This document shows, one piece after another, positions 1-3,646 of a stretch of 36,854 nucleotides of DNA; positions within the stretch are counted from its first letter, which is position 1; the number at the start of each line of letters is the position of its first letter. The DNA lies in assembly GCF_001650195.1 (NCBI RefSeq), contig NZ_LXYR01000049.1:1-36854 (forward strand), written 5' to 3'. The notes below the pieces were generated by a model that did no database searches, was not told the DNA's origin, and saw only the letters and a program-made list of their open reading frames with translations. Both the position numbers and the translations under genes were made by a program. The stretch comes from Phormidesmis priestleyi BC1401 (lineage in GTDB: Bacteria; Cyanobacteriota; Cyanobacteriia; Leptolyngbyales; Leptolyngbyaceae).

Positions 1-591
1 TATAACAAGCAAGTTGCCACCCTCAAAGAGAATCAGCCTCAAGGTTTTTGGTCTAAGCGATTAGCTGCCATCACTGAGAAACGCAATCGTCAGGTTAGGG
101 ATGCGGTCAATAAAGCGGCTAGAAAGGTGATCAATCATTGTCTTGAGAACAGAATCGGCACCGTCGTGTTTGGCTGGAATCGAGGGCAGAAAGACGGTGC
201 CAATATGGGTGCTAAAACCAATCAGAAGTTTGTCCAGATTCCCACGGGCAGACTCAAAGAGAGAGTCTCGCAACTGTGCGAACAGCACGGGATTCGATTC
301 GTTGAGACGGAAGAAAGCTATACGTCTAAGGCTTCGTTTGTGGATGATGATTTCCTGCCTAAAATCGGTGAGAAACCCGAAGGGTGGAAGGAGTCAGGCA
401 GACGAGTTAAACGTGGCTTGTACCGCACTCAAAACAATCAGTACATCAATGCTGATTGCAACGGTGCGGCAAACATCTTGCGAAAAGTAGCGACAACTTT
501 AGGGCTATGCCTTGAGGGAGTCAGTAGGGGCGCTTTGTTAACGCCTTTGAAGGTTCGCTTGTGGACTCTTCAAGAATCCCCTCGCCTTTAG
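1..591 (+). CDS. tnpB: TnpB-type RNA-guided nuclease/transposase accessory protein of IS200/IS605 family, 5' truncated by window edge
   Basis: The frame is open from base 1 to the TAG at 589-591, giving about 196 residues of the C-terminal half of a TnpB (OrfB) protein. Visible landmarks are the RuvC-II segment EESYTSKASF, with its catalytic Glu, and the RuvC-III segment NADCNGAANI, with its catalytic Asp. The segment KTNQKFVQIP is typical of the family. The CxxC...CxxC zinc finger that many TnpB proteins carry between RuvC-II and RuvC-III is absent; the spacer here runs through a basic GRRVKRGLYR segment instead, as in a known cyanobacterial subgroup. TnpB proteins are RNA-guided DNA nucleases that maintain IS200/IS605 elements. 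The RuvC-I Asp would lie outside the window, so activity cannot be judged. The stop codon falls inside the right-end hairpin of the element. Confidence 0.9.
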   Translation, partial: YNKQVATLKENQPQGFWSKRLAAITEKRNRQVRDAVNKAARKVINHCLENRIGTVVFGWNRGQKDGANMGAKTNQKFVQIPTGRLKERVSQLCEQHGIRFVETEESYTSKASFVDDDFLPKIGEKPEGWKESGRRVKRGLYRTQNNQYINADCNGAANILRKVATTLGLCLEGVSRGALLTPLKVRLWTLQESPRL

Positions 592-1114: not shown

Positions 1115-3646
1115 ATGGATCAAGCAGAACGGGCTACTTGGCTAAAGCAAAACACAGTGCTGGAATCGCTTTCAGACGAGACACTAGGAGCGATCGCGGC
1201 GGCAATTCAAGCAGAATCAGTGCAAGAAAATCGACGGTTGGTGCTGGAGGATACGATGCCTGCGGCGGTCTATATTCTGCACACAGGACGGATTGAGAGC
1301 TATCGCACCAGCTTGACGGGGCTTGCCAAGGCAACGAGCTTATTGCCCGGAGCGATCGTCTATCTCAAAGAGCTGCTGATTAACGCAGTCGCCGAAGACA
1401 CGACGATTACGCTCAGCGATTGCGTGATGTGGGCGATTCCTCGCGCTGATTTTCTAGCCCTGACTCAGCAATACCCAGAGATCTCACAGACATTTTCTCG
1501 GAATCTGGCAAACGAGTTAGAGGAGGTATCGCTGCAACTGGCATTTGAGCGCGATCGACAGGCAGCGCTGCGTCCCTATGTGGTACCCAAGGTCAAGCGG
1601 GGCATTGTGGGCACGAGTCGCTACGCGGTGAGAATTCGGCAGGAAATTAAAAAGGCAGCCAGCGATCGCCAATCAGTGCTGATTTTTGGAGAGCCGGGAC
1701 TAGAGAAAGACAACACGGCGGCGTTGATTCATTTTGGGTCGGGCGATCGCAAAGAGCCGATGATTCAGGTAAATTGCAATACGCTACAGCCGAGTGGATC
1801 AGAGCTATTTGGACGAGTCGGCGGCAAATCGGGACTGCTGGACTGGATCGGACGTGGCACGATTTTACTCAACAACTTAGAAGCAATTCCCACTGAGCTA
1901 GAAGAGAAGTTGGCGCACCTGTTGGCGACTGGGGAATTTAGCCCGCTCGATCGAGACGATGCAGCCCCGACTCCGCGACGGTGTGAAGCCCGAATTATGA
2001 TGACTTCTGAGAAAGTTTTGCCACGATTAGAGCGAGGAAAACTGGTCGGACATACGATTAAGATCCCGCCGCTGCGAGTGCGGAAGGCAGACATTCAGGC
2101 TCAAATCGAGTATTACCTCAGTTTGCTGTCTCGCTCTAGAGGCATTCCCAAGCCCACAGTCGCACCCGAAGCGCTGCGTCGTCTCCAAGGCTACGATTTT
2201 CCGGGCAACGCCGTTGAGTTGCAAAGCCTGATCACTCGTGCACTGACTCAATCAGATGGAGCCGCCGAACTGACCGAAGAAGTCTTTTGGGCAGCCAGTG
2301 TCAAAACCCGACGATTTCGGATTAATTTACTCAACGCTTATCCCAAGCTGCGGCAGTTTCTTCGCAGTCCGTGGTATCCCGATCGGCTCAATTATGGCTT
2401 CACCTTGGGATTTTTTGCCGTCGTGGTAGCCGTGCTGATGTTTGGTCCGCAGAGCCGCGATCGCAACATTGCGCTCAATTTCTTTTGGGCGTGGTGGTGG
2501 ATGCTGATGCTGGTGGCGTTTCCGTTTGTGGGGCGTTTGTGGTGTGCGGTGTGCCCCTTTATGATCTATGGCGAACTGGCGCAAAAGATCTCGCTGTGGA
2601 TCTATCCGCGTCAGCTTCAACCCTGGGCGCGAATCGAAGCCGAAAAGTGGGGCGGCTGGTTTTTGTTTGGGATGTTTGCCCTAATTTTGCTGTGGGAAGA
2701 ACTGTGGAATCTGGAGAACGTCGCTTATCTATCGGGCTGTTTGCTGCTGCTGATCACGGCGGGAGCGGTGATTTTTTCACTGCTGTTTGAGCGGCGATTT
2801 TGGTGTCGGTATTTGTGCCCGATCGGAGGCATGAATGGCTTGTTTGCCAAACTCTCGATGATCGAACTGCGCGCCCAGCAAGGCATCTGTTCGGCAACCT
2901 GCACCACCTATCAATGCTACAAAGGCGGACCTCAAAAGGGCGAAGGCTTAGAGACGGGCGGATGTCCGGTTTATTCTCACCCGGCTCAGCTTCAAGACAA
3001 CAAAGATTGCGTCCTCTGCATGACCTGCTTAAAGGCGTGTCCGCACCGATCGGTCGAACTCAACTTTCGTCCCCCCGGTATTGAACTTTGGACAACCCAC
3101 AAACCAAGCTACGCCGAGATTGCTCTGTTGTTTTTGCTGTTTGGTGCTGTGTTTTTACATCGATTACCTGAGATCGAACAGCAGTTTGGCTGGAATTTGC
3201 ACTTAAATAATTTCGGCATTCACGCGGGTGTTTCAGTTTTGGCGTTGCTGATTCCTGGCACGATCGCGCTCGTTGCCCACGCTGTAATTCGCTTACTCAA
3301 TGCCAAGCCGCGTCCCTTTTTAGAACTGGCGTATGGCTATTTGCCGATCGTCTTAGGCAGCAGTCTCGCCCATTATCTAAGATTAGGCTTGACCGAAGCG
3401 GGACGAGTCATTCCCGTGACGATCGCCACGTTTGGCGCAGATACTCAAAATCTGTCGTTGCCGATCGCCGTTGCCGATCCGGCTGTGATCGCATTCCTTC
3501 AGGGCGTGACGTTCACCTTTTCATTCTGGCTGAGTGTTTTTCTCACTCAAAAAATTGCTCGTCAACCGATCTGGAATTTGTTGCCACAGCATATGTCAAT
3601 GGCAGCGATCGGGTCTATCCTATGGGTAATCGTGGTGGGCTGGTAG
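1115..3646 (+). CDS. Fusion protein: cNMP-binding-like domain + degenerate sigma-54-activator AAA domain + NapH/NosR-like membrane 4Fe-4S polyferredoxin
   Basis: 843 residues from the ATG at 1115; a TTG at 1034 in the same frame is possible, but the extra 27 residues fit no domain. Residues about 10-150 resemble a CRP-type cyclic-nucleotide-binding fold. Residues about 180-400 follow the sigma-54 activator AAA+ layout (SELFG, IPPLRVRKADI, and GYDFPGNAVELQSL matching the usual PGNVREL). However, Walker A is GEPGLEKDN (around residue 192) instead of GxxGxGK, the GAFTGA loop is missing, and Walker B reads TILLNNLE without the Asp-Glu pair. ATP-driven sigma-54 activation is therefore unlikely, and cyanobacteria have no sigma-54. 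The C-terminal half has several hydrophobic helices with CAVCPF (around 477), CRYLCPIGG (around 564), a Cys-rich insert and CVLCMTCLKACP (around 632), as in NapH/NosR/CcoG-like polyferredoxins. A membrane electron-transfer protein gated by soluble sensor domains is my inference. Confidence 0.85.
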   Translation: MDQAERATWLKQNTVLESLSDETLGAIAAAIQAESVQENRRLVLEDTMPAAVYILHTGRIESYRTSLTGLAKATSLLPGAIVYLKELLINAVAEDTTITLSDCVMWAIPRADFLALTQQYPEISQTFSRNLANELEEVSLQLAFERDRQAALRPYVVPKVKRGIVGTSRYAVRIRQEIKKAASDRQSVLIFGEPGLEKDNTAALIHFGSGDRKEPMIQVNCNTLQPSGSELFGRVGGKSGLLDWIGRGTILLNNLEAIPTELEEKLAHLLATGEFSPLDRDDAAPTPRRCEARIMMTSEKVLPRLERGKLVGHTIKIPPLRVRKADIQAQIEYYLSLLSRSRGIPKPTVAPEALRRLQGYDFPGNAVELQSLITRALTQSDGAAELTEEVFWAASVKTRRFRINLLNAYPKLRQFLRSPWYPDRLNYGFTLGFFAVVVAVLMFGPQSRDRNIALNFFWAWWWMLMLVAFPFVGRLWCAVCPFMIYGELAQKISLWIYPRQLQPWARIEAEKWGGWFLFGMFALILLWEELWNLENVAYLSGCLLLLITAGAVIFSLLFERRFWCRYLCPIGGMNGLFAKLSMIELRAQQGICSATCTTYQCYKGGPQKGEGLETGGCPVYSHPAQLQDNKDCVLCMTCLKACPHRSVELNFRPPGIELWTTHKPSYAEIALLFLLFGAVFLHRLPEIEQQFGWNLHLNNFGIHAGVSVLALLIPGTIALVAHAVIRLLNAKPRPFLELAYGYLPIVLGSSLAHYLRLGLTEAGRVIPVTIATFGADTQNLSLPIAVADPAVIAFLQGVTFTFSFWLSVFLTQKIARQPIWNLLPQHMSMAAIGSILWVIVVGW

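Follow-up and report, generated by a model that had tools for sequence, protein, structure and literature searches.

What kind of protein joins a cyclic-nucleotide-binding-like fold, an AAA+ domain of the sigma-54-activator type and a membrane iron-sulfur module, and what does it do in a cyanobacterium? The question is raised by a gene in the window, which is the whole 36,854-nucleotide stretch of Phormidesmis priestleyi BC1401 DNA (contig NZ_LXYR01000049.1) that we analyzed. ORF and translation checks show that its frame encodes a single 843-residue protein (Table 1). Pfam places in this frame the domains cNMP_binding, Sigma54_activat (E = 5e-14) and AAA_lid_14, together with two stretches of Fer4_5 (the best at residues 544–580), bearing out the three modules proposed in the preliminary description, and NCBIfam adds a sub-cutoff match to NapH/MauN. 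Among proteins of solved structure, residues ~161–387 are closest in sequence to NifA and other sigma-54 activators and the N-terminus to a Crp-family regulator; the closest named match is a Phormidesmis priestleyi protein (91%). There is an alternative in-frame start (TTG) upstream, at 1034; position 1 is Met in at least 90% of a 10-row alignment of close relatives, in which the window protein and one partial row are included, and in 62 of the 85 group-A rows of the family alignment described below. The gene is a real member of an ordinary family, with an unusual build.

Table 1. Features of the gene and its protein, with positions given in the window.
Feature	Position	Strand	Basis
Gene taken as fesM (group A): 843-aa cNMP-fold / degenerate sigma-54-activator AAA+ / membrane Fe-S protein	1115..3646	+	frame, Pfam, family search
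CRP-like cNMP fold, residues 35–120; usual ligand-binding Arg absent at aligned position	1217..1474	+	Pfam, alignments, head model
Sigma54_activat AAA+ core, residues 164–300, without GAFTGA loop	1604..2014	+	Pfam, alignment, head model
P-loop GEPGLEKDN, residues 192–200, Lys198 invariant	1688..1714	+	family alignment
Walker B acidic pair replaced by Asn253-Asn254	1871..1876	+	family alignment
AAA lid, residues 321–383; arginine-finger motif before lid absent	2075..2263	+	Pfam, alignment
Membrane module, about eight hydrophobic helices, residues 425–843; NapH-like 471–649	2387..3643	+	NCBIfam, hydropathy
Cys motif 1: C477xxC480P	2543..2554	+	family alignment
Cys motif 2: C564xxxC568P	2804..2818	+	family alignment
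Cys motif 3: C592xxxC596xxxxC601...C617P	2888..2965	+	family alignment
Cys motif 4, ferredoxin-type: C632xxC635xxC638xxxC642P	3008..3040	+	Pfam, family alignment

The FesM protein of Synechococcus (Picosynechococcus) sp. PCC 7002 is said to contain cAMP-binding, NtrC-like and Fe-S parts, and the window protein, with its cAMP-binding-like domain, NtrC-like domain, Fe-S motifs and predicted membrane helices, matches this description. The connection runs through a genome very close to PCC 7002, G058, which shares 96% DNA identity with it over 6 kb of pAQ7 and has a sulfide:quinone reductase (SQR) protein 98% identical to that of PCC 7002. Because G058 has one match to the window family, with the same Pfam architecture, and because this protein is also the sole Fer4_5 match of that genome at E ≤ 0.001, we take the family to be FesM. 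The G058 protein is 58% identical to the window protein and has its domains in the same order; in comparison with PCC 7002 FesM, the window protein comes from another lineage, and its genome also carries a broken copy of a second type (group B, below). FesM was published in 2005 as a membrane iron-sulfur protein, according to the title (Xu, Liu, Zhao 2005, doi 10.1104/pp.105.061549), and for PCC 7002 the title and citing text report that cyclic electron flow around photosystem I depends on it and that it is required for photoheterotrophic growth; a citing paper states that its loss prevents mixotrophic growth on glycerol. The statement in the preliminary description that no characterized example was known is therefore wrong, and its idea of a link to electron flow was right in outline.

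By protein searches of 386 genomes of the phylum we found FesM-family matches (E ≤ 1e-30) in 104. In the class to which the window genome belongs, 100 of the 180 genomes have a match at this threshold–some as fragments only–and 80 gave none. Most matches are one long open frame, and because the same open fusion frame recurs in many independent assemblies, we can exclude the possibility that two genes were joined by a sequencing error. Beyond the phylum, coverage comprised a plasmid search, a scan of genome contigs for close relatives, and 14 control genomes included in the family searches. We aligned 115 family proteins, of which 113 came from genomes and contigs and 2 from plasmids, and divided them into groups A (n = 85, including the window protein), B (n = 12) and C (n = 18). 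Two duplicates (L038 and L100) and a set of fragments or broken frames (L041, L042, L044, L119–L122 and L123) were dropped before these counts, L123 being counted solely among the 13 group-B loci used for neighborhoods; the G058 protein (L160) is outside the 115, and some loci in the set may be near-duplicates of one another. Group B proteins have about 37–41% identity to the window protein. Group C proteins (L098–L117 minus L100 and L102) all come from family f19, whose members are cyanobacteria with small genomes; several of the smallest genomes in f19 (1.6–1.9 Mb) have no FesM-family match. Groups B and C each form a clade with support 1.0 in a tree that leaves the order of the groups unresolved and places one group-A row, L079, outside A. 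A root placed by means of a Deinococcus protein was rejected (branch 3.4, root support 0.31).

The AAA+ domain shares its fold and lid, a P-loop and the GN.EL lid motif with sigma-54 activators (PspF, NtrX, NifA), from which it differs in lacking GAFTGA, the Walker B Glu, the arginine-finger motif and the HTH, and in being membrane-anchored. In Walker A, the window protein reads G-E-P-G-L-E-K-D where the aligned activators read G-x-x-G-x-G-K-E. The P-loop Lys198 is invariant in the 115 aligned proteins; the residue after it, which is Glu in the aligned activators, is Asp in all 103 proteins of groups A and C and Thr in all 12 of group B. The third P-loop Gly is Glu in 62 of the 85 group-A proteins, including that of the window, and is kept in 18 of the 85, in 2 of the 18 group-C proteins and in all 12 of group B. 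At the Walker B Asp position Asn is found in 83/85 of group A and Asp in 7/12 of group B and 13/18 of group C, and the Walker B Glu was found in none of the 115. Neither a GAFTGA-like motif nor an arginine-finger motif occurs in any family protein (0/115 for each), although a control activator has both, and in the alignment the corresponding segments are deleted. The preliminary description was thus correct that the GAFTGA loop and the Walker B acidic pair, here Asn-Asn, have been lost; its claim that the Gly-Lys of Walker A is lacking was right about one Gly, which is changed, and wrong about the Lys. No homolog with intact Walker motifs and GAFTGA exists among the 115. Mean column conservation in the 85 group-A sequences is 0.96 in the P-loop (residues 192–200) and 0.72 in the AAA domain as a whole. 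From these motif losses and the conservation of the P-loop we conclude that the AAA+ domain, judged by its sequence, is degenerate as an ATPase and yet has a P-loop under strong constraint.

We found no match to the sigma-54 DNA-binding domain PF04552 in the window's own genome; in the whole set of 373 genomes, 9 have one, and it exceeds the cut-off in 2 of these. According to a published statement, none of the 29 cyanobacteria sequenced at the time had sigma-54 or its activators (PMC3162934). In the photosynthetic class, the activator matches below ~1e-9 in our E-sorted table lie at the places of FesM-family genes, as compared by eye. Five genomes from other families (f31, f34 and f38) have activator-like matches that are far stronger (1e-42 to 1e-71). 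We found no HTH DNA-binding domain in the window protein among Pfam matches up to E = 1, and the AAA+ domain, as far as its motifs can be read, cannot act as a canonical sigma-54 activator. One cyanobacterial genome, G125, has a solitary 202-aa frame (L125: 1462–2067, minus strand) that matches the sigma-54 DNA-binding domain over the cut-off (E = 2e-16) in a search for that domain alone. A Nitratidesulfovibrio plasmid match that we first read as a cNMP/sigma-54 fusion was rejected when its letters showed a GAFTGA-bearing activator; the additional domain of this protein is presumably a GAF domain.

Cyclic-nucleotide-binding domains of the CRP/PKA type have a phosphate-binding cassette with a Glu and an Arg. 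In alignments to two solved relatives, the equivalent positions in the window protein are Leu84 and Ala93. No Arg occurs at position 93 in groups A (0/85) and B (0/12), with scattered Arg at positions 94–96 in up to 9 of the 85 group-A proteins; there is a Glu two residues beyond Leu84 (E86, which is Glu in 52/85 of group A), so the absence of the cassette Glu depends on the alignment. All or most of the cNMP domain is absent from every one of the 18 group-C proteins, from 5/85 of group A and from 1/12 of group B. A full-length structural model was poor (mean pLDDT 52.6, with the Fe-S half mostly below 50 and unusable), and we therefore used an AlphaFold2 model of the head, residues 1–402 (mean pLDDT 74.9). 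In VIA-align comparisons, the AAA+ part of the head model matches the sigma-54 activator 1ny5_A (Z 16.1, rmsd 6.7, 228 aligned), and the cNMP part matches the GORK channel 9la1_D (Z 15.6, rmsd 2.4, 137 aligned) and the Clr regulator 7pza_B (Z 15.2, rmsd 3.1, 142 aligned). Sigma-54 activators and their AAA+ domains were also among the 50 Foldseek matches listed for the full-length model.

The 12 Cys of the four clusters in the membrane half are invariant in the 115 family proteins, window protein included, and a hydropathy scan gives about eight helices, in agreement with the preliminary description of four iron-sulfur motifs accompanied by hydrophobic helices. Helix counting on this simple scan suggests that the Cys-bearing loops (residues ~473–511 and ~558–668) lie on the same side of the membrane as the head. 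Like the NapH/MauN ferredoxin membrane proteins (TIGR02163), the window protein has membrane motifs of the CxxCP/CxxxCP type with ferredoxin-type Cys motifs after them, but it scores 49.9 bits against a curated cut-off of 213.05 and it has extra C-terminal helices and a fused cytoplasmic head. A stand-alone 4Fe-4S membrane protein from Deinococcus ficus plasmid pDFI1 (WP_027463891.1) is 31.8% identical to it over residues 404–817 and has all 12 Cys of the FesM family without the head; the gene for a His-rich protein lies just before its own, with a slight overlap between the two.

No neighbor gene is common to the group-A loci; the largest neighbor clusters, which are without domain annotation, are a response-regulator family (16/114 loci) and a glycosyltransferase (11/114). 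Eight neighbors of the gene in the window were scanned; those with a domain match are a TnpB fragment, a CHAT-TPR protein, SOD, polyphosphate kinase, a sigma-70 factor, a TPR protein and an Omp85 protein, and one has no match. None of the eight is an evident redox partner for electron flow, of the sort that the preliminary description proposed to look for nearby. Upstream of fesM, window positions 1–591 (plus strand) encode the C-terminal part of a TnpB/Cas12f1-like transposase protein whose remainder would lie beyond the contig edge, and between ~770 and 960 an imperfect recurring stretch of the GAACTC-GACC type is visible by eye, where Tandem Repeats Finder reports no repeat.

We think it probable that the window protein is a FesM-family electron carrier that faces the cytoplasm and has a non-hydrolytic, nucleotide-sensing head. 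The membrane half would carry electrons at the cytoplasmic face, in the simplest form by a route from reduced ferredoxin to the ferredoxin-type [4Fe-4S] clusters and membrane-proximal Cys motifs and on to plastoquinone. The head is a pseudo-enzyme that has kept its P-loop and lost the parts used for the usual NTP hydrolysis and for sigma-54 contact, with a cNMP fold that is without the usual cyclic-nucleotide Arg at the aligned position. We infer that it senses something or controls electron flow; a more specific version, which we put forward tentatively and at somewhat less than even chances, is that an adenine nucleotide or similar ligand binds to the head, which then gates electron transfer by energy or redox state. 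With Glu at the position of the third P-loop Gly, this putative nucleotide binding could be impaired. That a protein linked to electron flow has re-used a sigma-54-activator fold, as the preliminary description had it, is supported by the absent activator parts, by the own genome's lack of a PF04552 match and by the family being FesM.

Cyanobacterial cyclic flow is said to run "most likely exclusively" via NDH-1 in a 2026 review, which allows other routes in specific conditions, and since NDH-1 is given this credit, the part of FesM in cyclic flow could be indirect. FesM has nearly been left aside, with cyclic flow credited almost wholly to NDH-1, and two 2026 reviews, when searched for its name, do not contain it. 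The family is widespread, and with every Cys kept and an invariant P-loop Lys on an apparently non-hydrolytic AAA+ head, it makes a nucleotide-gated ferredoxin–plastoquinone route concretely testable.

Another possibility, which we regard as unlikely, is that FesM is a membrane redox sensor, with an Fe-S half that responds to the ferredoxin or plastoquinone pool and an AAA-like head that signals to a partner, so that it regulates cyclic flow rather than carrying electrons. A head made of two signaling domains, one of which retains its P-loop, is what such a sensor might have, and the lack of a match in 80 of the 180 genomes of the class would fit an accessory regulator. However, conservation is higher in the Fe-S core (0.86 for residues 400–660 in group A) than in the AAA domain (0.72) or the cNMP part (0.54), group C does without the cNMP domain altogether or for the most part (18/18), and the Deinococcus relative is headless. 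We consider it quite improbable that the protein is a membrane Fe-S reductase like CcoG/RdxA, serving to deliver metals or cofactors and affecting cyclic flow indirectly: its CxxCP/CxxxCP motifs beside membrane helices do resemble the NapH/NosR/CcoG group, but none of the 14 Pfam families, and none of the 25 NCBIfam families listed out of 38, is a CcoG family, and there is no neighbor gene common to group A (in neighbor clusters without domain annotation). A working sigma-54 transcription activator can be dismissed almost with certainty, because in spite of a PF00158 match above the cut-off the protein has no GAFTGA, Walker B Glu, arginine-finger motif or Pfam DNA-binding domain, and its genome has no match to the sigma-54 DNA-binding domain.

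What is new here is group B, a sister clade with an intact P-loop (GxGKT) and, in most of its loci, a cysteine synthase gene directly downstream. This gene lies within 600 nt on the same strand at 8 of 13 group-B loci, compared to 0 of the 98 other loci that have at least 1300 nt of downstream sequence; the remaining 5 group-B loci are without it, and one further non-B locus has a cysteine synthase on the opposite strand. Within 10 kb, a rhodanese-like gene is present at 7/13 group-B loci versus 0/103 others and psbA at 3/13 versus 1/103, counts that favor group B because the flanks of the other loci are shorter (mostly ~4 kb or less). Fisher values for the group-B associations ignore phylogeny. 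Individual group-B loci also have genes for HdrA/HdrB-like proteins, DsrE, TauE, an extra PetC, a protein partly like sulfur dioxygenase, and a type-III-like SQR below the cut-off of its model. In two genomes of one cyanobacterial genus (G157 and G262; loci L152 and L155), a heterodisulfide-reductase-like gene set, encoding HdrA/HdrB-like proteins and 4Fe-4S proteins, adjoins group-B fesM together with a type-III-like SQR.

To search for type I SQR we used as query the FAD-dependent oxidoreductase of PCC 7002 at L161: 25061–26341, presumed to be SYNPCC7002_G0075, which is called a type I SQR in PMC7042703. Matches were found in 29 of 80 genomes–7 of the 11 with group B and 22 of the 69 others–and this co-occurrence is not significant (p = 0.087). 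A higher figure of 9/11 (p = 0.002) was set aside as biased, because it includes type-III-like SQRs that were found only because those group-B loci were inspected. In the window's own genome the SQR match (C69: 2680–3942) is on the same contig as the group-B copy (C69: 11094–13331), and in G296 too the match is on the contig of the group-B copy. The own-genome copy has two frame breaks, its neighboring cysteine synthase stops after 224 of 319 residues, and the fesM copy was broken either by sequencing error or by decay. The 19.3-kb contig (G000:C69, locus L100) also has genes for an efflux-type transporter, a rhodanese, a DUF4079 protein and a Tll0287-like protein, and is likely to be a sulfide island.

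The location of several group-B copies near SQR, rhodanese or psbA genes, the broken copy in the window's own genome included, suggests that group B is a sulfide-linked twin of FesM. In the literature searched, no paper connects FesM-type proteins to sulfide genes; term searches of papers on sulfidic cyanobacteria gave no passage on a FesM gene, and the mentions of "iron-sulfur" in PMC8002359 concern PetC. It is conceivable, though we would bet against it, that FesM has diverged into one copy for general use and another for sulfide, with group B, whose gene often looks like an operon partner of cysteine synthase, providing dedicated, separately gated electron recycling around photosystem I during anoxygenic photosynthesis, when photosystem II is blocked by sulfide. 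The FesM phenotype, which concerns photosystem I without photosystem II, and the sulfide setting of group B, in which photosystem II is blocked, would fit one theme, and the twin would be a natural setting in which to test a nucleotide-gated ferredoxin–plastoquinone route. Extra genes for the Rieske protein PetC occur on two plasmids: on pAQ7 of PCC 7002 one is close to the presumed SQR gene (L161: 25061–28684), and an Aulosira plasmid that carries a group-B fesM has one at L143: 3007–3540.
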